Positions 33,891-63,577 of a stretch of DNA of 64,000 nt are shown in pieces. The notes below the pieces were generated by a model. That model was not told where the DNA came from, did no database searches, and saw only the letters and a program-made list of their open reading frames with translations. Each line of letters starts with the position of its first letter. Position 1 is the first letter of the stretch. Origin of the DNA: Alviniconcha marisindica. Lineage: Eukaryota > Mollusca > Gastropoda > Provannidae. The stretch covers positions 1,292,001 to 1,356,000 of the forward strand of contig JABMCL010002049.1 in NCBI GenBank assembly GCA_018857735.1, in the 5' to 3' direction. Both the position numbers and the translations under genes were made by a program.

Positions 33891-35034
33891 TGTGAGTAAA
33901 ACTGTATGTCATTCTGTTGACAGATTCCTAATTTTGATTAGTATTGGAAAGATATTTGCCAAGCATGGTGGTTTCTGGAGATACCTTTTTTGTGTTTTTT
34001 TTACGATTTTTTTCATAACATTGAGATTTCATGGAAATCATGATATGTTTGATCTTCATGATACTCACTGGTTATGCAGGGCTAGTTATGGTAAGTCTGC
34101 TCAGAAAATTTCAAGCCTCTATGTGCAGTAGTTAATGTTTTACAGCACTTTGAAAATTTGTGTTTTTGTGCAAAATGTGACGCTCCGATTTTACCTATTT
34201 TGGGCCTACTTCAGGAAGTACCTGTGCCAGAATGCATTATTATACAGTTTCTAGATTCTGTGTACTTAGAGTCATATACCAAAATAAGTAAATCCCCAAA
34301 TTTCAACTTTCCTGTTTGTATAGTCTGTTCTCTCTGAAATTCTGAACTTTGCCAAATGTTCAAAATGGCCCTTTTTGTCTGAAATCGCGACGCACCACAG
34401 CAACATTAAAATGCAATAACTCGAGAACTACCTGAGATAGAGCCTTGAAACTGTGCATGATTATTCATTTCATCAAGGCCACTTACTTTAAATATGTCAC
34501 TTTAAGTGCTAATTTTGCTTGGTACTACCTACTAATAGCATTGCTGTTACTATAGCAAATGACATGTAAAATACCCTGAAGATGTCACTTTTGAGTGCAA
34601 CAGATGCTGTATTTGGGTAAGTTTGGTTTCCGCGTTACACTGTTAATTCTTGGCAGTATGCGTCATTTGACCCCCCCCTTTGTCCTACTTAAATAGTGCA
34701 GATTATCTTTTTTTTCAATTCCTCACATGCAATAGGTGTTAAACATCAAGTAAACTTACATATCAGGAGTTTTAAAGCATTTAGATTTTTTGGTACCTAT
34801 GTCACAGTATTGGTACACAATTTCTGAGAACAACCCATATTTCTTTGTTAATGATTTCAGAGGATGATCAGTTTCATCATCTTGAGGAGAGAATTGGTCC
34901 TAGAAAGCAAGGCAGGCCCTAACATCTACCACGAGGCCACACTTGGACTGCAGTTTTTAACTTCATTTCCTCATTCAAACAAGTCTACATATATCTAAAA
35001 TTTGCCTAAATTTCCTTATGCTGTGCATTTTCCT

Positions 35035-37982: not shown

Positions 37983-40900
37983 GTAAACAAAAGAAGCTGT
38001 TTTGTGTGACGTAAACATGCACCACATCAAATACTTGAACCCACGTGGCTTTGCGGGAGTTGTGTGATTCTGTGAACACACTAGCCACTACGAGCCGGTT
38101 TGGCCTAGCGGTAAGGCGTTATGCTAGTAAGCAGAAGGACCTTGGTTCGATTCCGCTTCGGCTGTCTTTTCTCTTCAAAAAGGTTGGGGTTCGTGGACAC
38201 TGTCTTGTGACTTTGCCATTCACAATTAATGAAACGTTACCCCGCGGCTCAAAGCGCTTAACAAGCATAACATTAGTTAACAGTTTAAGACTTAACACAC
38301 AATGTAGCTCGAGATGGAAAATTTTATCAGCAATTTAACAAAAACTAACATATAATGTACACATCAGCAAAGGTTCAAGCATTTATAACTATGTGTAAGA
38401 TGCACGTACACACACACACACACTGTACAGACTGATTAGAGGTGAAGGACAATTTTGCTTAGCTGAAAAGTGAAATATTCTGAGAAGAGAAATGTCTTGA
38501 GTTTGCTTTTGAAGGAAGAGAGTAGCAGAGTGCCTGATGGGGAGATTGTTCCAGATGTGGGGGCAGAAGTGTGAGAAAGTGCAAAAGCAAGAGTCATTCT
38601 CTTGCCATTTGGTGACCACCAACTTTGCAACCTGACATCAGAGACTGAACGAGAGAGAGACTTCTTAAAGCCTGTGATTAAAATGCATTCTGTCGTACAG
38701 ATTAGGACTTCTTTACGTCCTGTATAGTAAATGCAGGGGGTTTGAGCAATTCTGCCAATTGCATGAGACTGAGAGTGAGACTGAGAGGGGTTTATTTTGC
38801 AATAAAAACACAGTTTTTCTATGTGTTTGCAACCTATGCTTTAGGCATTCAGCAAAACGGCTACAAGTGCAATCATGTATTGCTTCAGCTTGCCTGTAAA
38901 TGTAACAGAAATTGCAGATCTGCTTGGCCCTAGATTATACCAAGGTACACGATATCAGATTATGATATGATACGATACTTAATACCAAATCTGTCTGGCT
39001 TATCTTCATTAATTATAGTTTTATACACCACCACAACAGAGATCAACTTAGTTCAAGCCTGAGCATGAGCTTTTTCATTATTAATTATTTTGTCTGACCT
39101 TTGTAAAAGGGATCAACAAAATAATTTAAATTGTTAAAAACAAGGATTTTGTTTTTAAAATAGAATGCTCCAATGATTTTATTTTTGATTTACAATCCTC
39201 TTGCAATATTCAGTGATGGTTAGTGGGACACAACTGTAGCAAAAACAGTCAAATGTCACCGCTGGCCTTAGCTTAATGGTTTTCGGTGGACCTCATTGAT
39301 CTTGTTCCTCAGGTGATGTGAACACAAACCTCATGATATATTACTTTAATAAAACAAAGACGCAGCATTTGCAACATGGGCTACTCATGAGTATGAGTAG
39401 TACCACTACCAGTACAATTTGTCTTTGTGTGTAACCAGTCCTGCTGTCTCATCTCTTGTGAATAAATTATAAAACCAAATTTAGAACAATAGAACTAGAA
39501 GCTGAATAAAAAACCTAACCAGCAAGGGGGAAGATCTTGATTTTATGTGTTTTATTTTGAGAATGTTTAACAACAAAATGGGAATGATATTGCTTGTACT
39601 GTACATTATAACATACTTACGACTTAGTTGTATTATACCTAGAAACCCAATGACAATGTGGTGGGGGGAGGGGGGGGAGGGGGGAAGAGACAGTGAGTGA
39701 TAAGCTAGCCACATTTTTATTGGAAAAGGAGTGGAGGTGTTTTGCAAGACATTGTTTTGTACCAAATTCAGTTTTACTTTTAGGCTTTTTTCAGTTTATT
39801 TTCCCGCAGTGGGGTACTGTGGACACAGAAATTAAGGTCCTCTCTGTTGAGAACCCAGAGCTGACAAATGTTCTCCCTTTAAATTAAACTGAAGTTTAAA
39901 GCCTGGAGTAGGTCAGAACAAAGCAGCCGTGCATGCTTTGCCCATTGCCAGCAATTTCTTAGACAATTATTGCCCTAATTTTGACCATCCTGGCCCATTC
40001 ACCATTTTTCACAGATCCTCTCCCTACTTTTTAACTGCATCAGTTTTGGTCAGCACAGTTTCCCATGTGGGCCGGCAGAATAAAATAGGTCACCCTGCTC
40101 ATACTGTCATAGTCACAGCTGATTTAAGCAGGTTCCTGAGGTCAGTGCCTGCAGAATATAAACAGGTACCAAAACATGCATGTGTTATTGTGCATGTATA
40201 CATCAGATAAATGGATGATTGGTTTTTAATGTAGTTAGTATTACTGTCACAGTATCAATGAATTAGACGATTTAGAGACAAACTTGTGATTTAGTGAATG
40301 TGTTTTGAACTGATGCAAAGGAATTTTGAATGTGTGATTTGGCTAGATCTAGTAGATGTGACCCAATGTGGCTGACAGGACATTAACAATCCAAGAACGA
40401 TTTAGAGACAAACTTGTGATTTAGTGAATGTGTTTTGAACTGATGCAAACGAATTTTGAATGTGTGATTTGGCTAGATCTAGTAGATGTGACCCTATGTG
40501 GCTGACAGGACATTAACAATCCAAGAACTAAGTAACTTTAGTTTGTTTATACTATAGGCTGATGGTATTATGAGAGCAATTATTCCTTTCCTGGCACTGG
40601 CAGAAAATGTTATTGTCCTTTATTATATATTATATATAAAACTAGAGTAGTACTAGTAGTACCTCTTAGTCTTAATGAAATTGGTTGTCTCGTGGAACGA
40701 TATTGCTGTGATTTGCAGGAAGATGAGGTGTCAGTTGCATTGGTGGCTGTCCGTGCCTTGCAGCAGGTCTTCACACGGTTCCTCTCCACTGGGGAGATGT
40801 TTGTTGCTCACATGCCCACTAAGGAAGAAGGTAATGAAGGTCTTGAGCCAGGAAAAAAAATGGCAGTCAGTAAAATGCTATTTTTTTAATATCACCCATT

Positions 40901-43900
40901 AACTGCCTCTAAGGACATTGATTTGAATGGTGTCTTTCCATTGGGGAGATGTTTATTGCTTACATGCCCACTAAGGAAGAAGGTAATGATACTGAAGTCA
41001 TGAGCCAGGAAAAAAAATGGCAGTCAGCAAACTGCTATTTTTTTAATTTAACCCATTAACTGCCTCGATTCAAATGGTGTCTCTCCATTAGGGAGATGTT
41101 TATTGCTCACATGCTCATTAAGGAAGAAGGTGAGCCAGAGGAAAATGGCAATCAGCAAACTGCTGTTATTTTTCAATTTAACCCATTCACTGCCTTTAGT
41201 TTAAGCCAAAGGATATAAAATGGTGTCCATGCCAAAATGTTTTGCAAGTGTCTGTAGGATGTTGTAAGACTCGTATCAGGATGTTGCGCGTGATCTCTCT
41301 GGACTCCAGTTGTTTGTTTTTTTAACAGGATTTAATTAAATATATGTATTGCTAAAGTTTTAGCTTTTTATTTAACAATAATTTTGCTGGATTGTTGGAC
41401 TTTCACTTGTTTTAATAGTTTTTGGTGAAGTAGTGTTTGATGTTGCCATATCTCATATATATATATATATATGTGTGTGTTTTGCCCTTTAGCCTTTTTT
41501 TTGGCTTTTAGGTAATAATTAATATTAATGTGAGTTATTCCCTACATCGTGTACATGGTAACGATGGTTGACTAGGCATTAAAACCCAATTACCTAGCTA
41601 CTTATATCCATTAAAAACCAGTTGCTTGCTTACCTCTTCCCTGAATTCAGACCTTTCTTGCATTATCAATATTATGTGTCCAGAGCAAACGTCTCAGAAT
41701 GAACATTCCTGGTTACCTTAACCTGTTTCAGTGTTCTAAAATATGATTAGAGGGAAATTGTGCCAACAGTGCAAATTAATTGGTAAGGAAAGGGTTAATG
41801 CACAGGCTCTGGGAATGGGTTTTCATAGACCCACTCAACACATTTTGACCAAAACAAAAAACAAAAACAGGAAAAACAAATGTTGTGAAATGAGTTAACC
41901 AAAATTTGTCTGTGCCACTTGCAGTTGCACTGGTTACAGTCTTAGTCTGATACAATGTGAAAAAAAAGTCCATGTACTGTGCAATCCAGGTCACCTTCAA
42001 GGTTGTAAATTTTATCACAAATGCCTTGTCAACACGGATGTCATAGGATTTCAAGAAGTGTGGCTAGACTAGAAGATAGATCTACACCATAACTGAAAAC
42101 CTTGTTGATTTATGTCATGTCATTTTGGCTTATGTGTAGAGGTCAATTGGTATGTGGTGTTTGTGCAGACCTGACAAAAGAGGAGCAGTTATGTGCCTGG
42201 CTGCAGAATCAGTACAAGATGGCATGCGAGATTCTCTTGGAAAAGTTGGAGTCTGAAGATGCCAAACTGCGGGTACCATAATTACTCATTTTACTGTTGG
42301 CAACTATCTGTTTATCCAGACAGACAATTGACAGGGTTTGTTCTGTATTGTAATATTTTATAGTCAGTTGCTAAATCTGAAATGGGAAATAGAAGAATGG
42401 TGCTGAAATAAAAGTTTCCATCTATGGGTTTGAGTAAAGAGGTTTTCAAGACTATTTTAGTATCTTATCTATGCTGTACAAGATCCCTTTAAAAAATCAG
42501 ATTTAAGTTGATATTGCACTTCAAACAAACACCAACCCTGTCAAGACAAAGAAGGGGACACTCCATGTAGGTAGTCCAAAGTGATTTTGAAACTCAATAG
42601 TTGACTATCAGACTTATATATTTGCATAGATCTTTTTTATCTGATTTCAGTGATACCAATTTTATGTTGATCACTTGAGTAGTTCTGAAGTTATGATTTT
42701 TTTAATATTTAATTTTTTGCCCCAGTTTGCCCACAAAATGCAAATTAGAGAAATCCTGAGATTTAAGGTCCCACCTGTAAGCTATTTTGCATATAACCTG
42801 TCTAATATTTAGGAACCTCATTCTCCACAGTACAAATAATAGGCCCAATTTTTTGTAGACCTTCATTTTGATTATTCTTCCAGATATTTCACAGCAAACT
42901 GGCTAAATTCATAAAAAATGTCATCCATCAATCTTAAAAATGGTTTTAAAAAATAATAACTCCTCTTCTACTTGTCCTATCACCTTACTTTTTCTACCGC
43001 AGTTAAGAACTCTACATGATGCCATACTTTTCTGATTGATCACAGAGAAAATGTAAAAGTCCATTTTTTTTCAGGGTGACCTTGCATCACCTTACAGGCC
43101 CCATTTCAAGGGCATATATATGCGGAAGCGATGTCCCCAAAATCTTCTGTCTCCAACATCCTGGAATTGTTGCTAACTGGATTGACTTCAAACCCCCGTT
43201 TCAAAACAAAGTTCACAGCAGTCTCGGCTATGTCCTCTTTTTGCCACCATTTACCAAATATATATATGAAACGAATAAACCCAAAATTTGCAACAGAAGG
43301 TGAGTGTAATCATATATATGTGTCCTTCAGTAGGCGTATGCTCCTTTCAGACATTTGATCTAGATCTAATTTCTGAGTAACCGTGCACACTTCCTGAGTG
43401 CTGATGTCAGTAAAACAATTTATCCACTCATCCATTTACAGACTGAATCAGTCACTCTTGTTGCAAATGTTGGCGTCATTCGCTAGATCTGTTTGAGTGA
43501 TTCTGATATTTGTGGCCCAAAATGGCACTTGAAATGTCCCAGGAATTTTCGACTGTCTCCAATATCCAATATTACCAATAAAGTCTCTCCTAGACTGACA
43601 TTAGTAGAAAGGTTTGCTCAAATTTCTGTTTATAAATAAATTTGTCAATCATCCCATTGACACCCAAACCAGCTCTCGCCCGTGTTTGCAATCGTTCACT
43701 GACCACTTCATTTTTCATTTTTACTTCCAGAAGCATTCATTTGACAGCTTAATCTGGCTTTCAAGAAAAAGATTAATACTTTCAAGATCAACAAGATCAT
43801 TTACACGCAGTCTAGAACACTGATAGTGGAGAATCCACCAACTTGGCACGCACGATCGTTTGTCCGGTTGCCTCAGCGGCCATGGCTGATCGTACGGCTG

Positions 43901-46900
43901 TGGTAATAAAATCTCTGTTATCATGTTTCGGCGGCTGAGTGTTGGACATATGAATAGTTTTGAACTCTTATTTTAGTATAACTTTGAAGAAGAAAGATTG
44001 ATCTTTCTCCTGATATTTTTTATGAGAGTGTCCGTGGTCTAAAAACAGTACAAAATCTGTTAAACACATTTCAAACAACTTTATTCAGGACTTCTGCTTG
44101 TCGAAGGCAGCCATCATGGATATGGAAAGAAAGTTTAGCAGCAGCACTTTTGATTGATATAGATTTCATCATGGCTGGACTAGCCTACATCCAACACTCC
44201 GCATCTGAAGACTGCTTACAGCGAAGATTGTTTGCAGCCTATGCACATTGCTGACAGAAGGCAGCGCTTAGGGGTGCCGAGATCGGGGTGAATTTTCACA
44301 TTCTTTTTCAAAGCATAATAAACATAACAACACAGTTAGGAAGATGAGACATGAAGCTTTTCTCAACAGTAATTTTTATTGAGACTGGATCCAAAAAAAA
44401 CAAGAAATCCGTCGATGAAAATCGCTAAAATTAGACCAACTTAGTTACACAGAATGCAGCTGAGAGCACTTTGGACTGCCTACTCCATGCTCTTTGGTCA
44501 GTACAGCAGTGTCATCAGCAATGCTGTCCGAACACCAAGGACTGGAACGAACTACTGGCAGATGCAGTCCATGGAAGCTGATGTAACAGAACACTCTTGA
44601 CATGGTTAGCTCTGTTCTGAGATAAAAATATAATTTGGGTGCTCTTGCATGGAAGCTTGTGGCAGATAAATTTGGGCCATGCCAGAAGATCTGATCTTTA
44701 CATGTGACTGTGACGGAGAAAACTGAGGGCTAGTGAAACAAGTGTAATGATAATATTGATCACAGTAGCCAAAGTGCCTCAAAAGCTGGTTAGCTCAACA
44801 TTTAGAATTGCTCAGCTGGTGGTTGAGTTAAAAACTGGTTTAAAAGATCATGGATTTTCAGAGCCCAAGAGGAAGGAGGTGGAGCTGGGCTGTCATAGCT
44901 GGATGGATTGTCTTGCTGCTGAGTTGTTCCTCAACAGTTGCTTTTCGGACACTGTCTTTGTGACTTCGGTCCATGCAGCTGTTGAAACAGCAATCAGCAG
45001 AGTGCACAAGTTGCTTCACACTAGTGTGGTCCCCGCCTCCTTAACATTATTGTTCTGGTAGTGGCTGATGGTCTCTTCAGGCATTACGGGTCATAGTGCA
45101 CAGATGAACTATTCATAGGTACCTGACCCCTCCCCCTTTCCCCATCCCTACAGTTTCTGTGGACGTAAAGCACCACAATTACGTATTTCACTAATTCTGA
45201 TTTGTGGCATGACTTATTTAAGAAGTCGTGTTCATTGATTTGTTAAGGAAGCATCGCTGGTGGCATTGCTGAAGTTTGTGGAGCAGGAGGGACAGAGACC
45301 ACTGGAAACTCCAGCACCTGACCAGGTCCAGTTCCCCTTCAAACTGTTACAGGTCAGTTTCTACCCTGTCTCTTACTCTCTCACTCTCTCCATCACTCAC
45401 TCCCTCCCTCCCTCTCTTGTTTGACTCGTGTGAACAAAGGTGCTCTGCTTTTTTTCTTTTGGCTCTTTTTTTTCTCTCAAGTATGACAAGTTGATTTTGT
45501 GTTCAACATCCAGTCAGTGTTGTGAATTGGTGTATCCTAATGATATCATCATCATTTGTGTGACAGGGTATCATTGGCCAGTTGTTATCACGGACAGTCA
45601 ACATGGAGTCACTGATATTTCGCCTGAGTGAGGTGACAGAGAATGACGATGTTCGGTTCTTCATGATGAAGGCGATGAAACAGGAACTTGGCAAGACACC
45701 CATCAAGGTACAGACTGGCTTGGATCAATTTGTGTGTGTGCTTAAGTTTGAGTTTTTCTGCTGTTGGTGGTGTGCTTGCTTTGGTCTGTTTGCTATTCTT
45801 TTTTTTCTGTTGACATTTTTGTTTTTTGGGGGTGGTGGTTGGGAGTCCGAGTGGTTAGACTTCCAGGAACTTGGCAAGACACCGATCAAGGTACAGACTG
45901 GCTTGGATCAATTTGTGTGTGTGCATAAGTTTGAGTTTTTCTGCTGTTGATGGTGTGCTTACTTTGGCCTGTTTGCTGTTCTCTTTTTTTTCTTTTTTTC
46001 TATTGACTTTTTTTGGGGGGGGGGGGGGGGGTTGAGAGTGGTTAGACTTCCATTGTTGGGGTTGGTTTGGGTGGGTGTGGGTTGTTGTTGTTTTTGTTTT
46101 TTTGGGGGGGGGGGGTGTAAGGAAAGTTAACATTATATTTTCAACTACAAGCAGGCTTCATATGTTTGTTGTTGTAGCATTATAGTTTACACATTGTCTA
46201 TGTGGACAGGTACATCCTGAGGTGACCCTCTGCTGCTGACATGACGTTAAAATTCAAGCACTAACTTTGTAGCTATGTACAAATATTCCCCACTTCCCCC
46301 AAAAGTATCATGCACCAGTTTTCAGCCCTTCTGTAGTTGGATGCAATGCATTTGCTATCATTTTTAGTTGCATGTTTTCAACGCATGTGTTGTCAGGAGA
46401 GAAGTGAGATGGTTTTGTGCACTGTGCTGCTTCCACTGACTCTAGTGAATGGTTTGGTGGAAAAGGGTTCTGGGATCATGTTTTAGTTAAATGTCTTACC
46501 CTTCCAGAGACAAGGGTTTTGTATAAATAAATGTCTCTTGTGTATGTTTCAGGAGAGAGGTAAAATGTTCCTGTCCAGAGTTATGTTTGATTGCTTCTTG
46601 TACACATTTCAGGAGAGAAGTTGTACAATCATTCTCATAGTGTTCTGTTTTTTAATGTCTCTCGTGTACATTTTAGACAAATGTGAAGCATTCTTGTAAT
46701 GTGTTCTGTAAATCATGTCTCTTGTGTACATTCCAGGAGACAGTTGAGATGTTCTTGAGTACTTAGTGTTCTGTTTAAATGGAGACAGTTGAGGTGTTCT
46801 GGAGTACTTAGTGTTCTGTTTAAATGTCTCTTGTGTACATTGCAGGACAGAAGTGAAGTTTTCTTGTATCTGTGTTCTGTGTAAATCATAAATGTCTCAT

Positions 46901-49276
46901 TTACATTTCAGGAGAGAAGTGAAGTGTTCTTGCACAATGTGCTGTGCACCTTAGAAAACCTGGAATTCCCTGAACATGGTGACGGTGAGCCTCTCACCAA
47001 GTTTCTCACAGCCACAGGTATTGAGCTGTCTTTAACGACTCTTCAGTTCTTTGTTACACAATTTGATCAAAGAAAAGAGTGGGTTGTTATGATTGTAAAG
47101 GAATGAAGAGGTCTGCACATAACAGGGTATTTCATGTGACAATATATCTCATAGCCTGTCAACAAAAAGGAAGAACAAAAGAACCAAGGTTTTTAAACAA
47201 CAGTTGCTTACACTAAGTTACAGTGGAAAATATTCAGTAAAGATGTTTCGCTTGTATTATAAAACTTGTGAATGATAAGAACAGGGGGAAAATGACTGCA
47301 TGTGAATGCATTATCTCCAAAAGAAAATAGCCTCCAAATTTGAAATCACTGTGGTGTTTCCGCTATTGTGCTGTTGATTGTTTGCAATTTTCTTTGCTGT
47401 CTAAGTGCTGTGGATTTCAGTTGCCCAATTTTTCTTCTTCTTCAAACTCATACTCTCTTGCAGATGATAAGGTTTCACACCCCAAAATTTCTTCAGTCAG
47501 TCAGCATAAGAAGAGCTTCACAGCGTGTTGGATGGAGTTCCTCAGATCAGAGGTATACTTTTATACGTGTCACCTGTGTCATTATTTGCCTGTGTTTAGT
47601 ACTGAAAGTTTACATATGATTCCTTGCAAATGACTGTAAATCTTAACGATTTACTGGAGAGCTCTGAGAAATACCTGGGTGCTTTGTGTTTACAAGAAGT
47701 TGAAGACTAAATACTGATAATCAGAAGATGACAACAGCTTTGCTCTTGCTTGCATTGGGCCAAATATTCATGGATTTTGAAACACCTGCAGCCATTGCCA
47801 GAGTTGTATGCAACCCTTTTTTTTTCTTCTCCCCCTTTTGATTATGTATTGTATGGTAAATCTCAGCTGAACCATCAATTGCTAAAATTACTTTTGAGAT
47901 TTCCTTTTATCTGTACCATTTGCCTGTAACCGTTCTAGGACTTTTGCTTTGCCCCCCAAATCTGCGATTTTAATTTTTATCCAAATATTTCTACATTTTT
48001 GTTGTTGTAGATCTCTGCCTGACTGCCATTTTCTTGTCTTGTGAGCTAGAAATACCTAGCAGCAATAAACATACAAGTTACTGAAGTGACATTTTCTGTT
48101 GTAAAGCTCAACCTGACCCCCATTTTATTGTCTTTTGAACTAGAAATACCTAGCAGCAATAAAGATACAAGTTGCTGAAGTGACATTTCCTGTTGGCTTA
48201 CAGCTCACACCAGGACTGTATCGACGTGTGCTGACCAAGCTGGACGAGAAGGTTCTGCCTTTCATGTCCAGTCCTCTGGTGCTGGCTGACTTTCTCACAC
48301 TGTCCTACAACATTGGTATGCTTTGTCTTTGGTATGGCGCTCATTTCCTACACAGTCCTACAACATTGGTATGCTTTGTCTTTACTGGTGATGTTTTACA
48401 CATACAACACTGGTATGCTTTGTCTTTAGTGCCCATGTTGTACACAGTCCTATAACATTGGTATGCTTTGTCTTTGGTATGGCGCTCTTTTCCTACACAG
48501 TCCTACAACATTGGTATGCTTTGTCTTTACTGGTGATGTTTTACACATACAACATTGGTATTCTTTGTCTTTATTGCCAATGTTTTACACAGTCCTACAC
48601 CATTGGTACAATGGTACTGGGTCGCTCTGTCCTTTGCTATGGTTGTCACCAGCTTACACTGTTCTGCAATACTTGTATGCTCCATTCCAACTATTGTGAT
48701 GGTGATGGTCGCTTTTATATAGCGCTATTCTCCACTCATGAGCAGACTCGCTGCACTTTTGTCTCATGTGATTCCAAACGAGTGACTGTAGCTTTCTGTT
48801 TTCTTCGTCAGGTGGGGCCATCAGTCTACTGGCATTGAATGGACTGTTCATCCTTATACACAGATACAACTTGTAAGTCCTTGTCTCGGTGTTCCAGCAT
48901 GCTGCATGCATTGTAGTAGGAAATTCTCATGTTGTATTCTTCTGCACCTCAACAGATTTGTGCTGGTGAATTTGTTTAGAGGCTGGTTTTATATTGAGGC
49001 TAACACTGTTGCACTGGCTGTGTGTAGCAGACTAGGCCTCAGACAGTGAGTGATCATCTGGTGACTCATGCACAGGTTGTCAGACTAATTCGAGATTGAA
49101 AATTTCATTGCTGGACTGTGGGGTGTTTTTCTTTTCTCTTGTCACTCGTTAAGATCACAGACTTGTATGCTGGGATTTGATTGATGTTTTTGTAGCATAG
49201 TCTGCTGACAGGAATGAACAGGATAAGCATGCTTGCTTTTACTTGGGTTTAGTTCATAACAGAGCATAGCTGATGT

Positions 49277-49317
<41 letters not shown>

Positions 49318-52175: not shown

Positions 52176-52222
52176 AGGGCAGTATGATTGTGTGCATGAG
52201 AGAGATTTTGCTGGCTTGAAGA

Positions 52223-52228
52223 AATAAA
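52223..52228 (+). terminator. NOC4L polyadenylation signal
   Basis: AATAAA 48 bases after the NOC4L stop codon. It is the first canonical signal downstream; the 3' UTR would be about 70 nt. Confidence 0.65.
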
Positions 52229-52369
52229 GCAAAAAGGATGTGTGAAAAGATCTTTGTCTGTTTTACCAGAAATGTCTCTATTCAAGCTCAGTAAATCATG
52301 AGTATTAGATATGTATATTATATGTGCTAGCTGCTCCTCACACACATACACAAACACACTATCACAGTG

Positions 52370-53225
52370 TAGTGGCAGTACAGCTGCCATTTTTATGTAA
52401 TCACGATGCCATTTAATGTACAGTCACAAATGTACACACACACACACACATAAATCAATAATAATCATCAACTTAGTGATGTGTAGCACTTGTATTCTGA
52501 TACCTCTAACAGCCATGTTGCATCAGTCCACCCCAGTAATAATTATACTCAAAGGTGGATGCTCTTCCAAAATAAGTTCTTATTCTCTATGCAGTTCAAT
52601 CTGATGTGATATCTCATGCATTTTATCATGACAACTGCCATCTCAACATCATTAACATGCATCAAAGCGATCACTGAATCACTCTGCTAGGAATCTACCT
52701 GAGCTACACTTAATATCTTTCCATGAAGGACAATGATGCGAACAAGAATTTCCATGACAATGGTTAACAGTAAAACCCAGTGGGTTTCAGGCACACTCTC
52801 TGCCATCAAAATATTAAAAAAGGCAGTAAAGAGAATGAAACTGGGTTGGCCTACTCCTCTGGATCGAACAAGAATTATCACTGACAGTGAGAAACAGAAT
52901 TTACAAGCCAATACAAAGTTTTCACTTACTTGTTAATAACACCACCAGCAGGCCCCAACAGCAATAATCAGCAATTGGGCTGGTTCAGCAGTCTATGCTG
53001 CATGCCCAACATGGATCATTTAAAAAAACAAAAATTCTATTGTGCCATTAAAGTGAAAACAAAATGAAGGCTCAGACCCTGGACATGATGTGTACATCCT
53101 TGGGAAGAATAAGGAGAATAATAATAATAATGGGTACTTAAAAAGTGTCTAACCCACACAGATCCTAAACGCTTACACATTCTTTAAATGTACATGTGTT
53201 CAAGATTCAGTGTGTACACCACACC
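52370..53225. repeat. segmental duplication, copy 1 (between the convergent genes)
   Basis: Matches copy 2 in two pieces: 52370-52640 with 53265-53605, and 52655-53225 with about 53990-54570. Copy 1 keeps only the last 17 coding bases of the LRR gene's final exon (reverse complement of CATGACAACTGCCATCTC at about 52627) and lacks the rest of the exon and about 390 bp around it. Confidence 0.85.
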
Positions 53226-53264
53226 CTGCTACTCACATACACACACACACAATCGCAGTGTCCG

Positions 53265-54565
53265 CACAATGTCAATAGTGAATACAGTGAAACAGGATAT
53301 AGAGAGCTGCCTTTTTACTGGGTAACAATGCCATTTAATGTACAGTCACAATGCCATTTCATGTACAGTCACAAATGTAAACACATGTACACAAATACAA
53401 AATCATCAACTTAGTGATACAATAGCACTTGTATTCTGATACCTGTAACAGCCATATTGCATCAGTCCACCCCAGTAATAATTATACTCGAAGGTGGATG
53501 CTCTTCCGAATAAGTTCTTATTCTCTACGCAATCCAATCCAATATCTTGCACACGCATACACACACACACACACCAGTCTTTTATCATGACAACTGCCAT
53601 CTCTCCATCTCCAAGGCATCATCATTTTCCAGGAATTCATCATAGTCTTCATCAAAGTCACCTAGATCATCATCAATGTCCACAAAGAGACCTGCAATGC
53701 AAGCAAAAGAAAAAAGCACTTCCAAATACATGCATTACTCACCAGAGGACAAGAACACCATGCTGACATGTACTGAGTATATATATTTATGTAATCAACT
53801 GGGAATTCACAACTGCACAGAGTACAGACAAAATTGGGGTGGGGGGTATGAATAAACCAAAATTTATCTACAAGTCTGATGCATAAAAAAAGTGCTGCAA
53901 TGAGCACAATGTGCTTAACCTTACTACATACCTTGATTTTGCATAAAAATTATGCATCAGAATCTTTAAAAACAAAATCGTGTAAAATGCACCGAAAACA
54001 TTCATCAAACTGATCCCTGAGTAATTCTGCTAGGATTCTATTTGAACTACAATTGATATCTTTCACTGAAGGACTGACCAATGTAAACGAGGATTTCCAT
54101 CACAATGGTTAACAGTGAAACCTGACAGGATTCAGGCACACTCACAGCCACTGAAAAACCTTAACAAAAGGCAGCAAAGAGAATGAAACTGGGTTAGGTC
54201 TACTCCTCTGGAATGAGCTAGAATCATCACTGACAGAAACACAGAATTCACATGCCAATACAAAGTTTTCACTGTTTGTCAATAACGCTGCCAACTGGCC
54301 CCAACAGCAGTAACCAGCGATTAGGGCCAGTTCAACAGTCTATACTGCGTCCCAAACACAGATTGTTTAAAAAAAGCTTCTGCTGTTGTATTGTGCCATT
54401 AAAATGAAGACACAATCAAGGCTAAGACCTTGGACGTGTTTTGTACATCCTTGGGAAGAATAAGGACAATAATAATAATGGGTACTTAGAGCACCTAATC
54501 CACACAGGCCCTAAGCACTTACACATTCTTTAAATGTACATGTTTTCAAGCTTCAATGTATGCAC

Positions 54566-54575
<10 letters not shown>
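53265..54575. repeat. segmental duplication, copy 2 (holds the LRR gene's last exon)
   Basis: Parent or sister of copy 1. It contains the intact final exon 53585-53691. Between them lie extra sequence and a (CA)n tract at 53554-53574. It ends at the (AT)n microsatellite 54575-54625. Confidence 0.85.
53585..53691 (-). CDS. LRR gene last exon with stop
   Basis: LFVDIDDDLGDFDEDYDEFL, ending ENDDALEMERWQLS then TGA (53585-53587). Acceptor GCATTGCAG. A (TG)n microsatellite lies just past the stop, in the 3' UTR. Confidence 0.85.
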
Positions 54576-54627
<52 letters not shown>

Positions 54628-56455
54628 CAGGGTAATGGGACAGAAGAAAGGTTTTCAGTGAAGATTTAAAAGAACTCACTGAGGTAGAATGTCGCCAACT
54701 GGTCAGTTACCATGCAAACTCGCCCCGATATAACCATCATGGCTGCCTGGGCATTAAAAAAATCACTTGCCTATCTATCTAAACACAGCACGGAATTCCT
54801 CTCTCTTGGATCTACAAATCACCACGCCTGAGGTTTGAACCTTGATCAACTTATAAACAAATAATCCTACATACCTGGCCTCTGCTGAACTGCTGGCTGG
54901 TGCACCCTGGGCTGCACCACCACAGGCTCTCCCTCCCACAACTCCTCTCCCAACACTTCAAAGAGGGGCGGGCCTTCGTCCTTCACTCTCTCTCCCCTTT
55001 CCAACAAGGCGTCTGCTCTTTCTGGCAGGTTGCCTCCCTTCTCCGCACCCCCTTCCCGCAAGATGTCTCCTTCCACCAACATGGCTGCCACTTCTTGCAG
55101 GTCATCTCCCTCTTCCTCGTCGCTCCAGGGCTCCGGGAGGTAGAGCATGTTCACGGGGTTGAACTGACGGTTGGCGCGGTTGTGGCGCTGCAAGGACACC
55201 CAGCTGGGCAAGTGCAGGTCCAGAGGGGCGGCTCCTTCCTCCTCTTCCTCCAGCATCATTGTGGTGCCTGAAACACAGTAGGTCACTGTGGTGCCTGAAA
55301 CACAGCAGGTCACTGTGGTGCCTGAAACACAGTAGGTCACTGTGGTGCCTGAAACACAGTAGGTCAGTGTGGTGCCTGAAACACAGTAGGTCAGTGTGGT
55401 GCCTGAAACACAGTAGTCAGTGTGGTGCCTGAAACAGTAGGTCAGTGTGGTGCCTGAAACAGGTCACTGTGGTGCCCAAAACACAGTAGGTCATTGTGCT
55501 GCCTGAATCACAGCAGGTCATTGTGCTGCCTGAAACACAATAGGTCATTGTGCTGCCTGAAACACAGTAGGTCACTGTGGTGCCTGAAACACAGCAGGTC
55601 AATGTGGTGCCTGAAACACAGGTCATAGTGCTTCCTGAAACACAATAGATCATAATGGTGCCTGAAACACAATAGGTCACTGTGCTGCCTCAAACACAAT
55701 AGGTCACTGTGCTGCCTCAAACACAATAGGTCACTGTGCTGCCTCAAACACAACAGGTCATTGTGGTGCCTCAAACAGTAGGTCATTGTGGTGCCTGAAA
55801 CAGTAGGTCATTGTGGTGCCTGAAACACAGTAGGTCACTGTGGTGCATGAAACACAGTAGGTCATAGTGCTTTCTGAAACACAGCAGATCATAATGGTGC
55901 CTGAAACACAATAGGCTACTGTGCTGCCTCAAACACAATAGGTCATTGTGGTGCCTGAAACAGTAGGTCATTGTGGTGCCAGAAACACAATAGGTCATAG
56001 TACTTTCTGATTCATTGTGGTGCCTGAAACACGGTAGGTCATTGTGGTGCCTGAAACACAAAAGGTCACTGTGGTGGCTGAAAGAAAGGTCACTGTGGTA
56101 CCTGAAAACAACAGGTCATTGTGATGCCTAAACACAACAGGCCACTGTGGTGCTTAAACACAACTGGTCATGGTTCCTGAACCAACAGGTCACTGTGGTG
56201 TCTGCACACAACAGGTGGTCACTGTGATGCCTGAACACCCCAGGGTACTGTGATGCCTGAACACCCCAGGGTACTGCGGTGCCTAAACACAGCAGGTCAT
56301 GGTTCCTGAACACAATAGTTAGCAACATACAATCAACTACATCAAACAAAACTTCTGACCGACAACTGATTCATATAATCAAACTTTGCTCTGGGACATG
56401 AATTGATTATAACTATCAAAAACACATGTGAGCTTGAAGAGGTTGGTTTTTTGGT

Positions 56456-56499
<44 letters not shown>

Positions 56500-59400
56500 A
56501 TGCCTGTATGTGTGTTGGGAGGGAGGGGGGGGGTAATAACACTCCACATATATACCAACACCCACTAACAACCCATATACATGCACAGGGAGCAATCACT
56601 TCACAAACTGCCTCCAACCCCCTCCCCCACCCCATCAAACAAAAAACCCAACAAACCACACTTATGAAATAAACTAACATTCATATTCATTCACTTCACA
56701 AACTGCCTCCAATTCCACCACCACCCACTCAAAAAAAAAAACCCAACAACCCACACCTATGAAATAAACTAACATTCATATTCCAACTGCATGCATTTTC
56801 CCCCCCATGCTCTTGTCTGTTTCCTTTGCAATCATCACCACACAAAAAGCAAGTTTTACACTTGCAGCTAGACTGTCTTAGAGAATTCTACCATCAAGAG
56901 CTTTGCCACTGACCAAACTTACCACCGATCACAATCTCCAGTGGCAGGTCAGCCGGTCGGTCACACTGGCCGTTGGTCAGACAGGCTAGGGCAGAACGAG
57001 TCAGCTGTGTGTTGTTGCTTAGGTCCAGTACTGTTAGCCTGCAGCACAGCTCTAACACATGCTGCACACCTGAAACACATGCCGCACACCTGTAATGCAT
57101 GTTGCGCACCTGTAGCACACCTGAAACACATTGCACACCTGCAATGTATGTTGCACACCTGTAGCACATCTTGCACACCTGGAACACGTTGCACACCTGT
57201 AATGCAAGTTGCATCTCTGTAGCACATCTTGCACACCTGTAACACATCTTGAGAGCCTGTAACACATGCTGCACACCTGCAATGCGTGCTGCATCTCTGT
57301 TGCACATCTTGCACACCTGTAACATGGGCTGCACACCTATAGCATGCTGCACACATAGCACATGTTGCACACATCCTGTAACATATACTGTACACATAAC
57401 ACCTGTTGCACATCTGTAACATAGACTGCAAACTTTTAACACCTGTTGTATACCTGTATCATATGCTGCATACCCTGACATCTCCAACAACTGATGCACA
57501 AACACCTGAACACATGCAGCACTAGCTGAACACTCACAACACACTGCACTCCTGTAATCTATGCTGTATATTTGTAACCCACACTGCATACCTATAACAC
57601 ACTGCACACCTGTAACACACACTGCACTCCTATAACCTAAGCTGTACGTCTGTAAGCCACACTGCTTTTCTGTAACACACACTGCACACCTGTAAAACAC
57701 ACTGCACTTATTGTACACCTCTAACATATGCTTCACAACTGTCAGAGAAGCAGCTCTCATCACAAATTTATTCCCAGTTTGGACAACCAAGTGCCAAAAG
57801 AACAAAGCAACCCCCAAAATCAATGCAAAAGAACCCAAGAGATGTCAAGTTAAACCAGTCACTTTGTCTGCAAAGCAACCACCAAAATCAATGCAAAAGA
57901 ACCCAAGTGATGTCAAGTTAAACCAGTCACTTTGCCTGCAAGGCAACCCCCCAAAATCAATGCAAAAGAACCCAAGTGATGTCAAGTTAAACCAGTTACT
58001 TTGCCTGCAAAGCAGCCCCCAAAATGAACACAAAAGAACCGAAGTGACCTCACAATCAACACACAAGGGAGTTAATTAGCACTCGAAATACATAAGTACA
58101 ACAACAAAGACCTGAGTCGCCTATGGTAACTCTCGCCTGGCATGCATGTAAATGCAAGGTACATAAACTCCACCAGAGGTACATCCTGAAGTTAAATCAG
58201 TCACTTTGCCCACAAAGCTACCCCCAAATGAATGCAAAAGCACCTAAGTGACCTCAAGTTAAATCAGTCACTTTGCCCACAAAACTGCCCCCAGATGAAT
58301 GCAAAGGAACCTAAATGACCTCAAGTTAAATAAATCACTTTGCCCACCTGCTTCTGTGACCTCCAGGCAGGTGTGGATGACCAGCCTCTCCAACAGACCA
58401 CGAGATGCCAGCTTCTCCAGCACACAGTCAGTCACCTGTGAAATATGAATATGATCCACCAGGTTGACAGATGGTATTTTGAGCTTTAGTTACAATTGAA
58501 GGGGCACTCATTTTGTCACGGAATTTATGGCATCAGCTGATGTCTGTGAATGAACCACTGGTTGCCTTGGATTAAAAAATAATAATCAAATATTGATTCA
58601 TGAACACAGTACAAACTCACTTCTCTGTGCTAAAACTGCCTCAGCTTGACACCTTCTGGCTGCTTGACTGAACTCCTTAAAGTTTACAAACCAACCAGCC
58701 ATCTACTCTTTTTCTAATATTTCCATTCTATGTCTTTCCTCTGTGCGCACACACTCACTGGGTCAGAGATCTTTTTCTTATGCTGTGTGTGTGTGTGTAT
58801 GCATGTGTGTACCATTCTTTGTCTTTCCTCTGTGTGCACACACTCACTGGGTCAGAGATCTTTTTCTTATGCTGTGTGTGTGTATGCATGTGTGTGTGTG
58901 CGTGCGTGCGTGCGTGTTTGATTGCACGCATACACTCACACAAGTTTGTTTTTAATGTGTTTTGGTTCTTTGCTTTGTACTGGGCTATGTGCTCTAATTT
59001 AAAGGAGAAAAAGCACATAAAAGAATCCATTATTATTTTTATATTATCTGTAGAAATATATCGGGTAGACAAGTTCCTTGCACTGATTTTGTTGATGTGA
59101 AGCACAAAGGTTTCCGTTCATTTATCACATGACATTCAGTCTCACTCAGTCCTACCACAGATCTATCACGGCATCAAAGCTAAGTATCAATGCTGTTCAT
59201 ATTAACAAATAATTCTGTCTCTAGACACTCTGCATGCACGAGTATGTACAGGTTGTGCACCCAATTAATGCATGGCTTAAACAATGCCAGAGACTCACAT
59301 TCTTAAGAAGGAAAGAAAAAAGTACTAATTTCTCAAATAATGCTAATTTGTAAAGTGCCTACCCTGTGACTCAAAGCAATGCACGCACATAACACACATA

Positions 59401-60111
59401 TTGTACATCGAGATGGATGATGTTATCCATTAGCTGAACATTCCCGAAGAAACAGTGTTAAAGATTCGCCCCTGATGGGTTAAAACTGTTTCAGTGTGGC
59501 ATCAGCCTGCCACAAGCTGGACCCATTCCACGACAACCTGGTTAGGGTGTCAGTATGATCAGGCAAAAACCTAAAGGAATGAAGTGAAGGCCACCTCTGA
59601 CATCATACCTGCTTGATGTAACTGATGTCGAGTGACACCAAGTGATCCAGCACCGTTAGTGACGACAATCCCACTTCAGTCACATGGGGCCGACAGCCAC
59701 TCAGGTTGAGAGCTCTGTAACAGTAAACACCATTGCTACAGTAGAACACCTCATGGCAAAAGGTCACAATTTTGCTGAACACCTCTGGTCATGTTTCCAT
59801 GTCATGTCATATCATATGTCAAAAGATCCCCTCTCACACCAAAGACCACCCTCAGGCGAAACCACCCTCCTCTTTTAAGACTACTTTTTCACAACTTAAA
59901 GGGAAGTCTAGTGGGACCCCTCTTTAAAGACCACACTATAATTCAAATCCAACTGGTGTTAAGAGAGGGGTGGTCCTTGGTCAGAGGTCATTCACACGGA
60001 AATATTTTGTGCATGCATGCACGCATGCATGTGCACATGCATGCGTGCGCGCATGTTATTTACATTTAAAGACCATTTTACTGACTTTTAAAAATGTGGG
60101 TGTGTGGGTAT

Positions 60112-60142
<31 letters not shown>

Positions 60143-61926
60143 CATGGGCATGCATGCACGCACAAGCACATGCATACTTTTTCACATTATCTGCAATATT
60201 CTAAATAAATTTCAATAACAAAAAAGAAGTATGTTTTATGTTTTGCTGTTTTTGCTGCTACCAAACGATTTTTCCCCAAGGGAACAGCAAAACTGTATTG
60301 AATCGTATGTACATGGTGGCAGAGAGAGCTCACTGTCTAGTTACATTAAAATACAGGGAGCATTCTGCTGGGCAGAGTGCGAGGTACCTCAGATTTGGGC
60401 AGCCCTTAGCTATGGCTCCAACTGCTTCGTCCGTGATGTGAGTGTTCAGGTCCAGCCGGAGTTCTCTCTGAATACACACTCATCCCTTTGTACATGTGTC
60501 AGCACAATAATCTTAGCAAGAATGATCTACAACAGCATTCAGTACAAACTGTGTAACCATTTCATAAGCAAGAAACTATCTCAAATCTCAGTATTTCTGT
60601 TTCAGCAGAACCAGTCTTAAACCAGTCTTAATCTTAGATGTCAATGATATGTTTTACATATATAGCAGCCCGGTGAGTTACTGTCAGCGATTCAGGTCTC
60701 TGCTGTTGTGCATCCCTTGTTATACGTGCGATGGCTGCCAAGCATCATTAATTCCCTTCGTTTGTTGGTGACTTGTTTCATTTGATGTCCAGCCAATATT
60801 TGTTTATTTTGCTTCTAGTCATATGTTTAGTTTAGTTTTTAATGTTTAACAATACTGTAAGTCTTTTCAGATACAAACAACATTTCAAAAAATCTGTTTT
60901 TATAAGTGATCACAGTAGGAACATTAGTAGCAGCAGCGATAGTAGTAGCAGTACTGCATCTAACATAGCATTTTAGCTGTGAACACAATAATAACAACAG
61001 ATAATTCTTATAAAGCGCCATTCTCTAACATGAGTTAAATTCACTGCACTGTACATTCTACAAACAACTTAACAAAAACCACATTTACATACATTTCAAC
61101 AAACTTCACCATTCATGCCAAATATGTACACGTGCCGACATGCACACAATCCATTGTCACAGGAATGCATGGTGTGCTTAGGCAAACAATAAGACTAAAA
61201 AAGGATACAATACAAATGAGAAAAAGGGATACAAACCAGTTTATGCAGGTTTCCAATGGAGCTCCAGGGCCCAGTGGAAGCTGAAATGACAAAGATGTGA
61301 TACATTACATGAAAACAGAGCACACAACGAAAACATCTCAAATGTGTATCTAAAATTTGAGCCTTCTTTAGTTAGCAAGGCAGTTTGTCTTTAGAACTAA
61401 CAGAAGACACAGAGTTTGTTCCCACCCAGCCAATGTGCTGAAAGGCCAATCACTTCTTTTTGCCAAACATCAACTGTCAGAAACATTTGCCGGTACTTGC
61501 AATGTTTGACTGTTTTTGTTTTTGTTATCTGGCTGCGCAAATAAATGCTTCAAAAGCAATACCAGTTTTGTGCCTATTATATTTCCTGCATTTTCTTGGT
61601 TTCTTTCTTTGCTGCTACACACAAAAAAAACATTTATTATACCACAGAAAATATTTGACTTTATTCTAGTGTTTATTTGAATATATAATACTTGCATATT
61701 ATTCTCACATTTTCAGTGAACTTGATTGTCAGTGATGCCTTGTACATTAAGTCCGATTGAAGGCAACAAATCAAAGACAGATTGCCTTGCTGAAGGAAAC
61801 TGACTTCAGACATGAAACAATTACACACTTGTAGGCACTGGGGGTGGCATCCTTCAGCTGTAAAAGAGGTATAAGACTCATGAATACCTTTGGGGAAATG
61901 ATCTTCAGCTGTCGGAGAGATCACAT

Positions 61927-61976
<50 letters not shown>

Positions 61977-62085
61977 CCTCCCTCCCTCTCTCTCTGTAGG
62001 TTAGCAAGGACTAGTTGTTAGACAGGTTTTTGACTAAACCTAGACTACAATCCTTGTAAAATAAAGTTTTCAAATTTGAGTTCAA

Positions 62086-62149
<64 letters not shown>

Positions 62150-62386
62150 GATTTTTACCCATCAGTAGCTTAGCAAGGCCTAGTTGTTAGACAGGTTTTT
62201 GACTAAACCTAAACTACAATCCTTGTACAACAAGGTTTTCAAATTTGAGTTCAAGTTTTCTCTCTCTCTCATTTATTTTTTACCCATCAGTAGCTTAGCA
62301 AGGACTAGTTGTTAGACAGGTTTTTGACTAAACCTAATCTACAATCTTTGCAAAATAAAGTTTTCAAATTTAAGTTCAAGTCTGAG

Positions 62387-62440
<54 letters not shown>

Positions 62441-63577
62441 GCACACCTTTGGGAAAGCTGCCTTCAGTTATGAAAAAGTCAAACAAAGACTCTTGCAGAC
62501 GTTTGGGAAGGGCACCTTGAATGAGAAAAGAGTTGAGGCATTCCATACCTCTGGTAAAGCTACCTTTAGCCATGGAAGAGCTAAAGCACTTCTACACACC
62601 TTTGGGAAAACTTCCACCAACATCCAGCACTTCAAGGTCGGACAATGTCTGGAATCAAAACCAAAAAATTAAAAGAAGGAAAGAGGACTATTCCACGTGA
62701 CCAAGCCATAATACAGAGAACAAACATTACATGTAACCTGGCGAAGACAAATCTATTTTCTGACACAGAGAACAAATATTACATGCAACAAGCCAAGGAC
62801 ATAGGGAATAAATATTACATGTCTTAACCTAATGACATACAGATCAACCAGACAATGACACAGAGAACAAACATTAATGTAACCAGGCAACAACACAGAG
62901 AACAAACAGTACAATAAATGCATCAAGTCAATAACACAGAGAATAAATATTACTTGTCATAACCTAATGACATACAGATCAACCAGGCAAAGACACAGAG
63001 AACAACAGTAATGTAAACCAGGCAATGACACAGAGAACAAACGGTTTGTAACCAGGCAACAACACAGAGAACAAAATACTACATGCAGCAAGCCAATGAC
63101 ACGGAGAATAAATACGACATGTCACAACCTAACAAGATACAGATCAACCAGGCAACGACACAGAGAACAAACGGTTTGTAACCAGGCAACAACACAGAGA
63201 ACAAAATATTACATGCAGCAAGCCAATGACACGGAGAATAAATACGACATGTCACAACCTAACAAGATACAGATCAACCAGGCAACGACACAGAGAACAA
63301 GTATTACAGGCAGCAAGCCAACGACACACAGAACAAACAGTTTAAGAAATAACCACTAATGGCACAGACAACAACAAAATGACTGTCATCCAAGTTAGGC
63401 ATGTGTTATCAGCAACTGCTCATTTGAAGATGCTACAACTGTGTGATCATTATTAAGTCCATTACTCACCGTGAGTGCTCTGATTGCAGTGTCTGTCAAG
63501 CTTACACATGAGTGAATCTGCAGATCACGAAGATCAGGGCATTTCTTTGATAACTCAAGGATGCCATAGTCTGTCAA
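53585..63577 (-). CDS. F-box/LRR (AMN1-like) leucine-rich-repeat protein, 3' part, 9 exons
   Basis: Exons 63470-63577, 62600-62648, 61237-61280, 60388-60467, 59609-59714, 58348-58435, 56923-57069, 54875-55267 and 53585-53691 join in phase to 373 codons and a TGA. Residues 1-205 are cysteine-containing leucine-rich repeats of the kind that follow an F-box in FBXL ubiquitin-ligase substrate receptors (CPDLRDLQIHSCVSLTDTAI; GCPNLRALNLSGC..VTEVGL; LVIHTCLEVTEAG). Residues 208-373 form a strongly acidic tail that starts MMLEEEEEG and ends LGDFDEDYDEFLENDD. The 5' exons, and any F-box, lie right of the window, so the ligase role is inference. I do not recognise a specific orthologue. Five of its junctions carry tandem copies or degenerate derivatives of the junction sequence. 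Confidence 0.85.
54575..54625. repeat. (AT)n microsatellite
   Basis: About 25 uninterrupted AT units, preceded by (CA)n, in the last intron of the LRR gene. Confidence 0.95.
54875..55267 (-). CDS. LRR gene exon 8 of window, acidic tail
   Basis: A 393-bp exon rich in Glu and Asp (TTMMLEEEEEGAAPLDLHLP, VNMLYLPEPWSDEEEGDDLQ). Low LRR content; probably disordered apart from the PSWVSLQRHNRANRQFNPVN segment. Locally GC-rich. The acceptor TGTGTTTCAG is the first of dozens of copies. Confidence 0.88.
55264..56320 (-). repeat. LRR exon 8 acceptor minisatellite, 27-bp unit
   Basis: Thirty or more copies run upstream (in gene sense) of exon 8. The unit in gene sense is TACTGTGTTTCAG|GCACCACAGTGACC. 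Starts at 55264, 55291, 55318 and 55345 show an exact 27-bp period near the exon; indels and single-base changes increase further away. Every good copy carries a TGTGTTTCAG acceptor in the same phase as exon 8. Confidence 0.93.
56454..56494. repeat. (TG)n microsatellite
   Basis: About 18 TG units in the LRR gene intron between window exons 7 and 8. It is followed at about 56700-56790 by a near repeat of 56590-56680 (ACAAACTGCCTCCAA, CCAACAA(A/C)CCACAC, TGAAATAAACTAACATTCAT). Confidence 0.9.
56923..57069 (-). CDS. LRR gene exon 7 of window
   Basis: VQHVLELCCRLTVLDLSNNT, then QLTRSALACLTNGQ and DLPLEIVIG. The acceptor chosen is TGTGTTTCAG at 57070-57071, because it keeps phase with exon 6 (EVTEAG-VQHVLELC). 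An inner CTGCAG acceptor at 57039-57040 would break phase. Last LRR, then a transition into the acidic tail. Confidence 0.85.
57050..57735 (-). repeat. LRR exon 7 acceptor minisatellite, about 20-bp unit
   Basis: Some thirty degenerate units of the form ATGTGTTACAG|GTGTGCAGC in gene sense, contiguous with the exon 7 start (TGTGTTTCAG|GTGTGCAGCATGTG). Because the unit has no stop codon in most frames, a 314-codon frame runs through the array into the exon. Confidence 0.88.
57783..58347 (-). repeat. LRR exon 6 donor array, about 67-bp unit
   Basis: Seven units in two groups (57783-58065, and 58190 to the exon). In gene sense each contains GTGGGCAAAGTGA or its variant, TTTAACTTGA(G/C) and a GGTCACTT block, echoing the exon end GAGGTCACAGAAGCAG|GTGGGC. 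The unit next to the exon merges into it. Confidence 0.85.
58348..58435 (-). CDS. LRR gene exon 6 of window
   Basis: VTDCVLEKLASRGLLERLVI then HTCLEVTEA. Acceptor ATATTTCACAG, donor GCAG|GTGGGC. The donor side is the end unit of a tandem array with a repeat length near 67 bp. Confidence 0.9.
58436..59608. other. LRR gene intron with duplicated microsatellite
   Basis: A tandem duplication of about 88 bp (58723-58811, 58812-58897) carries TCACTGGGTCAGAGATCTTT plus a (TG)n tract. No exon recognised; exons 5 and 6 of the window join in phase. Confidence 0.7.
59609..59714 (-). CDS. LRR gene exon 5 of window
   Basis: ALNLSGCRPHVTEVGLSSLT then LVSLDISYIKQ. Acceptor TACTGTTACAG, donor CAG|GTATGA. 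Confidence 0.9.
59715..60387. other. LRR gene intron with alternating purine-pyrimidine tract
   Basis: 60003-60056 is almost entirely alternating (GCATGC, GTGCAC, GCGCGC words), followed by (TG)n at 60115-60141 and further GCATGC words. Such DNA can adopt the Z form. No exon recognised. Confidence 0.7.
60388..60467 (-). CDS. LRR gene exon 4 of window
   Basis: RELRLDLNTHITDEAVGAIA then KGCPNL. A classic LRR_CC pattern. Acceptor GTGTATTCAG, donor TGAG|GTACCT. Confidence 0.88.
60468..61236. other. LRR gene intron, nothing recognised
   Basis: A short GTAGTAG-type triplet stretch near 60930-60960; otherwise unremarkable A/T-rich intron. Confidence 0.5.
61237..61280 (-). CDS. LRR gene exon 3 of window (micro-exon)
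   Basis: A 44-bp exon, ASTGPWSSIGNLHKL. Acceptor ACATCTTTGTCATTTCAG, donor CTG|GTTTGT. It joins in phase to RELRLDL in the next exon to form a proper LRR (NLHKLRELRLDLNT). Confidence 0.78.
61735..61925 (-). repeat. degenerate 51-bp repeats, distal block
   Basis: Read in gene sense, successive 51-bp units give related 17-residue words (TAEDHFPKGIHESYTSF, TAEGCHPQCLQVCNCFM). They belong to the same family as the block at 62440-62600 on the other side of the (CT)n tracts. Confidence 0.6.
61931..62438. repeat. (CT)n tracts alternating with a 100-bp repeat
   Basis: Four CT runs (61931-61996, 62090-62144, about 62258-62270, 62386-62438) are separated by three copies of a unit with TTAGCAAGG(A/C)CTAGTTGTTA and TTTTTGACTAAACCTA. 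The alternation implies that the CT tract and the unit were amplified together. Confidence 0.9.
62440..62600 (-). repeat. LRR exon 2 donor repeats, proximal block
   Basis: Three 51-bp units downstream of exon 2, each with a version of the exon end GGAAGTTTTCCCAAAG|GTGT: GGTAGCTTTACCAGAGGTAT, GGTGCCCTTCCCAAACGTCT and GGCAGCTTTCCCAAAGGTGT. Two of the three keep a GT donor. Confidence 0.8.
62600..62648 (-). CDS. LRR gene exon 2 of window
   Basis: A 49-bp exon, TLSDLEVLDVGGSFPK. Acceptor TTGATTCCAG, donor AAAG|GTGTGT. It continues the repeat register of exon 1 (RALT-TLSDLEVLDV). Its 3' end is the apparent source of the 51-bp repeats that follow. Confidence 0.8.
62700..63345. repeat. compound tandem array
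   Basis: Recurring words: GACACAGAGAACAAAC, CATGTCACAACCTAA(C/T), ATACAGATCAACCAGGCAA and GCAGCAAGCCAATGACAC. Two of the higher-order units (about 63000-63150 and 63150-63300) are almost identical. Unlike the other arrays, no similarity to the flanking exons was found. Confidence 0.85.
63470..63577 (-). CDS. LRR gene exon 1 of window
   Basis: LTDYGILELSKKCPDLRDLQ then IHSCVSLTDTAIRALT, one and a half LRR_CC repeats. Acceptor TTTTCAG, donor ACG|GTGAGT. It begins in phase 0 inside the repeat domain, so earlier exons must exist. Confidence 0.9.

Follow-up and report, generated by a model that had tools for sequence, protein, structure and literature searches.

Tandem arrays carrying copies of exon-intron junctions in NOC4L and an adjacent LRR gene of Alviniconcha marisindica

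Tandem arrays whose units are genuine copies of exon-intron junction DNA were identified in NOC4L and in an adjacent FBXL-like LRR gene of Alviniconcha marisindica, by a self-match scan combined with scoring of individual copies. A preliminary description of this DNA had proposed such arrays at ten sites. At six of them, the array clearly extends across the junction, with 5 nt or more on either side. Of the other four, one crosses weakly, two only abut the exon and one (NOC4L exon 12) is not supported. The probable explanation, in our view, is that tandem duplication and slippage of the ordinary kind are tolerated at junctions because the original splice site survives. The analyzed window, i.e., the whole stretch of DNA studied, comprised 64,000 nt, positions 1292001-1356000, on 1 of the 2806 contigs of a single 817.6 Mb assembly.

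Coordinates of both genes and of the arrays are given in Table 1. The NOC4L translation matched human NOC4L chain 7mq8_SU (E 1.2e-81) and Pfam CBF. In the LRR gene, an exon 7 acceptor at 57069, first proposed by an exon scorer, was preferred because it gave normal LRR spacing, in a single frame, and because the FBXL2 alignment continued four residues into exon 7 under this acceptor. Two other models were rejected: exon 7 acceptor 57038 combined with exon 6 donor 58348 broke the frame, and exon 6 donor 58320 mended it, yet was abandoned in favor of 57069. The rotation null and splice matrices described below were built on the earlier 58320/57038 LRR model, and the per-base and per-array junction counts (coverage, placement and collapsed introns) on the corrected one. 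EP400, located on the minus strand, contributed 14 exons and 28 junctions. Residues 1-454 of the EP400 translation matched Pfam EP400_N, and a candidate exon at 13580-13714 was discarded because it broke the frame.

Table 1. Genes and repeat arrays in the window
Feature	Position	Strand	Description
NOC4L exons 2-13	40719..52175	+	Unbroken 467-aa frame when joined; human NOC4L match
NOC4L exons 2-7	40719-40830, 42169-42272, 45248-45352, 45567-45707, 46912-47017, 47464-47552	+	
NOC4L exons 8-13	48204-48315, 48812-48872, 49511-49621, 49946-50186, 51618-51728, 52065-52175	+	
NOC4L exon 2 donor array	40770..41198	+	~157-bp unit, 3 copies, crosses junction
NOC4L exon 5 donor duplication	45681..46113	+	183-bp unit, 2 copies, crosses junction
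NOC4L exon 6 acceptor array	46393..46944	+	Degenerate ~45-66 bp units, 7 copies, crosses junction
NOC4L exon 8 acceptor-side array	47998..48195	+	94-bp unit, two copies, abuts only
NOC4L exon 8 donor array	48291..48681	+	44-53/145-bp units, 7 copies, crosses junction
Degenerate repeats, intron before NOC4L exon 12	50318..50986	+	Acceptor at 51618 not reached
FBXL-like LRR gene	53585..63577	-	9 exons within window; FBXL2 and FBXL17 chain matches
LRR gene exons 1-5 in window	63577-63470, 62648-62600, 61280-61237, 60467-60388, 59714-59609	-	
LRR gene exons 6-9 in window	58435-58348, 57069-56923, 55267-54875, 53691-53585	-	
LRR exon 2 donor repeats	61877..62615	-	Weak, degenerate, touch donor
LRR exon 6 donor-side array	57802..58347	-	67/68-bp unit, abuts exon
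LRR exon 7 acceptor array	57037..57742	-	~20-bp unit, 19 scored copies, crosses junction
LRR exon 8 acceptor array	55255..56311	-	27-bp unit, 36 copies, crosses junction

The local self-match scan was ungapped, covered distances of 12-600 with simple repeats taken out, and yielded 549 self-match pairs across the window. An earlier redundant scan of 40200-63700 detected 8451 self-matches, compared to 0-2 in three shuffles. Since shuffled sequence was nearly match-free, the arrays are not noise. It is also very improbable that they are an assembly artefact, as their copies have diverged individually and similar arrays are seen on further contigs.

In NOC4L, all three copies of the exon 2 donor array contain ~48-54 exon bases and an intact GT (copy counts throughout include the real splice site), and both copies of the exon 5 donor duplication contain 27 exon bases and an intact GT. 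The 183-bp unit of the latter is a multiple of three and the NOC4L frame remains open through the second donor, which, if used, would add 61 residues. The exon 6 acceptor array includes ~21 exon bases, with AG intact in six of seven copies, and the exon 8 donor array includes 19 exon bases, with GT intact in 7/7. The end of exon 8, the conserved coding part of this array, aligns with human NOC4L. Two further NOC4L sites had been put forward as junction copies. The exon 8 acceptor-side array stops 8 nt before the exon, with a gapped alignment extending it 4 nt into the exon, and the repeat family before exon 12 ends ~630 nt upstream of the acceptor, where the comparison found just 12-21 nt resemblances. 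In addition, a dispersed repeat, of which at least 39 further copies were scored across the assembly, was observed at 45000-45190, between NOC4L exons 3 and 4.

Among the LRR gene arrays, the one at the exon 8 acceptor carries 12 exon bases, and AG is intact in 32 of its 36 copies. The first 27-nt copies upstream of exon 8 (55267-55402) are open in the frame of the exon, and each of these decoys, if used, would add 9 residues in open frame; therefore, acceptor choice is not readable from the sequence alone. The exon scorer favored another copy, at 55294. The exon 7 acceptor array retains AG in 17/19 scored copies and includes ~26-31 exon bases given the acceptor at 57069. The exon 6 donor-side array, also thought to copy its junction, stops exactly at the border (last exon base 58348) and repeats no exon base. 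The exon 2 repeats do cross the donor (62599) as proposed, albeit weakly, with 5 exon bases and a score of 16. Overlapping them, a strong two- to three-copy array at 61990-62440 was found to be a dispersed repeat, and not a purely local minisatellite, with copies on contig C50 (sampled loci L020, L026 and L027).

Many array copies hold a splice site that scores like the real one with matrices trained on 35 acceptors and 33 donors of the window, one of each later replaced. Selection could maintain such decoys because they serve regulation or diversify isoforms, for example through the 27-nt LRR exon 8 units. The dinucleotide is retained in most LRR exon 8 acceptors and in every NOC4L exon 8 donor, many of them scoring like real sites, and the open NOC4L exon 5 unit is compatible with this possibility. 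However, units are mostly not multiples of three, and in the two largest arrays, the only two compared, AG is conserved about like the remaining unit (0.94 versus 0.92 over 36 copies in LRR exon 8, and 1.00 versus 0.94 over 19 copies in LRR exon 7). Because AG is not clearly better kept than the rest of the unit, intact decoys probably reflect young or homogenized arrays, and selection preserving them, as originally suggested, appears unlikely. As the exon parts encode conserved protein, junctions were probably the source of the arrays rather than the reverse.

Local duplications are also abundant elsewhere in this genome. The loci sampled on other contigs (L001-L027) totaled 270,000 bases, 160,000 of them unmasked (non-N), and local duplication made up 22.7% of the unmasked bases; in the window, it occupied 18% of the NOC4L stretch and 32% of the LRR stretch. 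An ab initio exon search of the fetched loci provided one usable multi-exon gene, CDC5L, a chance find at the beginning of contig C1 (L001); an SK-channel exon was left out. The 12 CDC5L exons were placed using the human sequence, and borders 12124, 11963, 10412 and 7089 have weak splice scores. Four of the 24 CDC5L junctions are crossed, one weakly (7167, score 16). A copy of a CDC5L exon start (LQQVVKLGQASEFA) was also seen at L001 5409-5450, lying 442 bp upstream of the genuine one at 4999.

Two small CCT fragments were picked by Pfam-search coordinates before their sequence was seen, and 1 of their 11 junctions is crossed, after one acceptor was reassigned by hand. For the CCT5-like fragment, the top-scoring site of the script (locus 305) is not crossed, and site 259, chosen by hand, is. 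Both the putative CCT5-like name and acceptor 259 follow human CCT5, and acceptor 259 also follows the reading frame. A 59-bp duplication (L036 229-368) spans this acceptor, and AG is lost in the decoy. Crossings in CDC5L and the CCT5-like gene indicate that such arrays also occur outside the window.

EP400 had been described as free of such arrays, and its 28 junctions indeed lack any crossing. However, only ~1.3-1.5 crossings would be expected in its array-poor introns, and this zero is therefore uninformative. Several other repeats were noted in the window: a short element in two copies 376 bp apart flanking an EP400 exon (5542-6045), a dispersed repeat at 38092-38240 found in six fetched loci (L005, L017, L019, L020, L023 and L024), and plus-strand open frames at 29741-33900, which by eye only resemble transposase and are accompanied by a 27-bp array (30363-30507).

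The initial claim that arrays overlap borders more often than expected by chance was only partly supported: an excess of ~1.8-fold was seen per array and none per base. Local duplications covered a fraction of intron points amounting to 0.17 for NOC4L, 0.40 for the LRR gene, 0.25 for CDC5L and 0.045 for EP400; accordingly, 18.0 of 92 junctions were expected to be crossed, compared to 11 observed. When the repeat track was rotated over NOC4L and the LRR gene under the first gene model, six thresholds gave 5-9 observed crossings versus null means of 7.6-12.1. A special junction-duplicating mechanism, which had been regarded as implied, does not follow from the data: junctions of NOC4L, the LRR gene and CDC5L are crossed no more often than their intron points.

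Point coverage was set aside as a sole null because introns are inflated by the arrays. Placement of arrays in introns of current length (11 of 32 families crossing versus 4.25 expected, P=0.002, uncorrected) was also set aside, as too generous to the finding. Since arrays lengthen their own introns, we judged fairest a null in which introns are collapsed to one unit per array, with unit-length placement. Under this null, 12/34 families cross in six loci versus 6.66 expected (P=0.016, uncorrected), with 11/27 versus 4.82 at a score of at least 20 (P=0.003, uncorrected) and 7/16 versus 3.26 at a score of at least 60 (P=0.02, uncorrected). At a score cut of 14, NOC4L and the LRR gene, a pair chosen for its pattern, gave 7/16 families versus 2.89 (P=0.012). 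At the same cut, the loci not chosen for arrays (EP400, CDC5L and two CCT fragments) gave 5/18 versus 3.77 (P=0.31), and CDC5L and CCT without EP400 gave 5/10 versus 2.29 (P=0.04, uncorrected). Several thresholds were tried, P values are uncorrected, and the placement model, part of the unit lengths and the exon overlaps were set by us. An excess per array of 1.3-3-fold remains after correcting for array growth.

Uniform placement is an imperfect fit because the exon parts are short: exon overlap of the crossing families is 5-54 nt, and under half a unit lies in the exon for 11 of 12 of them (overlaps entered by hand). When exon overlap was capped at 50 nt, every ratio rose, with pooled ratios of 3.2-4.1 (P at most 0.0009). 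With this cap, 12/34 pooled families cross versus 3.81 expected (P=0.0002, uncorrected), and 5/18 versus 2.02 among loci picked without regard to arrays (P=0.04, uncorrected). A true junction bias, roughly two-fold, is possible.

Such a bias could be mutational, with junction DNA being duplicated more often via breaks or replication stalls, or via short shared words (AG/GT, pyrimidine tracts). Consistent with this idea, the six pooled loci have 1.8-2.4 times more crossing families than unit-length placement predicts, the exon overlaps are short, and the pattern is repeated in CDC5L and the CCT5-like fragment. However, the per-base excess is absent, the main null is not rejected for the four loci picked without regard to arrays, none of 8 EP400 families crosses, and the sample is small, with several thresholds and the first two genes picked for the pattern. 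We therefore regard a mutational bias as rather doubtful. A detection bias has a somewhat better, although still minor, chance of accounting for the excess. Because the exon copy is frozen by its coding function, a crossing pair would diverge about half as fast and stay recognizable longer, producing an apparent excess of up to two-fold. This is argued from rates alone, and several crossing families do seem old, with degenerate units (NOC4L exon 6, LRR exon 2 and the CCT5-like acceptor), but the ratio is about equal in the strongest families (7/16 versus 3.3, score of at least 60).

Under the preferred explanation of ordinary duplication and slippage, local tandem duplications would arise throughout the genome, and some would span an exon border. 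One complete original junction would persist after such an event, so that the old mRNA would still be spliced and the allele tolerated. Slippage or unequal exchange might then multiply the unit within the intron, with exon scraps and splice signals carried along as passengers. We infer neutrality, tolerance and the slippage step. Simple two-copy arrays at 40267-40528, 12127-12256 and 3263-3328 (periods 130, 64 and 33) exceed two unit lengths by 0-2 bp, which is what end-joining or slippage would produce.

Junction-spanning minisatellites are a known kind of repeat, and the presence of several arrays per gene is the unusual feature here. Human ABCA7 has an intron 18 VNTR, a 25-bp minisatellite with 23.7 reference copies directly beside exon 18, which contains the exon 18 donor, its first two bases being the donor GT; retention of one unit and skipping of exon 19 were reported, and skipping increases with VNTR length (PMC5954066). 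A unit containing the real splice site of the neighboring exon, as in this VNTR, was found at six sites in the window. However, ABCA7 is one human locus, whereas here several loci per gene are affected, units also include exonic sequence, and arrays are found at acceptors as well as donors. Splicing effects are reported for ABCA7, and the arrays described here are known from DNA.

Minisatellites (average 30-bp unit, 4 repeats) also occur at exon-intron boundaries of human segmental-duplication genes and can alter splicing (PMC2812944); these genes are recent paralogs with transcript support, and our arrays are described from DNA. In C. elegans, a minisatellite is reported to be enriched in introns beside alternative exons (PMC4039745). 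Among the matches listed, as far as their text extended, none tested across a whole genome whether minisatellites overlap splice junctions, and PMC2812944 and PMC4039745 came nearest. Arrays of dual-specific splice sites, such as UBC, have AGGT in every tandem unit (PMC10809524). AGGT (read AG/GT) is present in 16 of 19 LRR exon 7 units, the only array in our set of this type; UBC units are ubiquitin coding monomers, whereas ours are mostly intronic.

Intron gain or shift has been described for tandem duplications that include a splice or proto-splice site (PMC2891723). Examination of NOC4L and LRR introns revealed no sign of a new intron, and this origin was not supported: in the intron between NOC4L exons 5 and 6, and in that between LRR exons 6 and 7, the donor-side and acceptor-side arrays belong to separate families with unrelated units. 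Another study reportedly likewise addresses intron gain or shift by tandem duplication (PMC4974935).

Our results suggest that much of the border overlap is as expected in a repeat-rich genome and provide hints of a modest border excess. If duplications do not favor borders, the lesson is one of caution, as coincidence with exon edges would be common when a quarter of the sequence is locally duplicated. Such arrays also mislead gene models: LRR exon 7 was first misplaced, and the scorer took another copy at LRR exon 8. It is a tentative idea, and on balance an improbable one, that junctions are hot spots starting duplications at least about two-fold over introns, and that at least a tenth of junctions carry decoy ladders able to feed length-variable isoforms. 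If duplications do favor borders, mutation would steadily supply spare splice sites, through which alternative isoforms, longer introns and shifted borders could arise.
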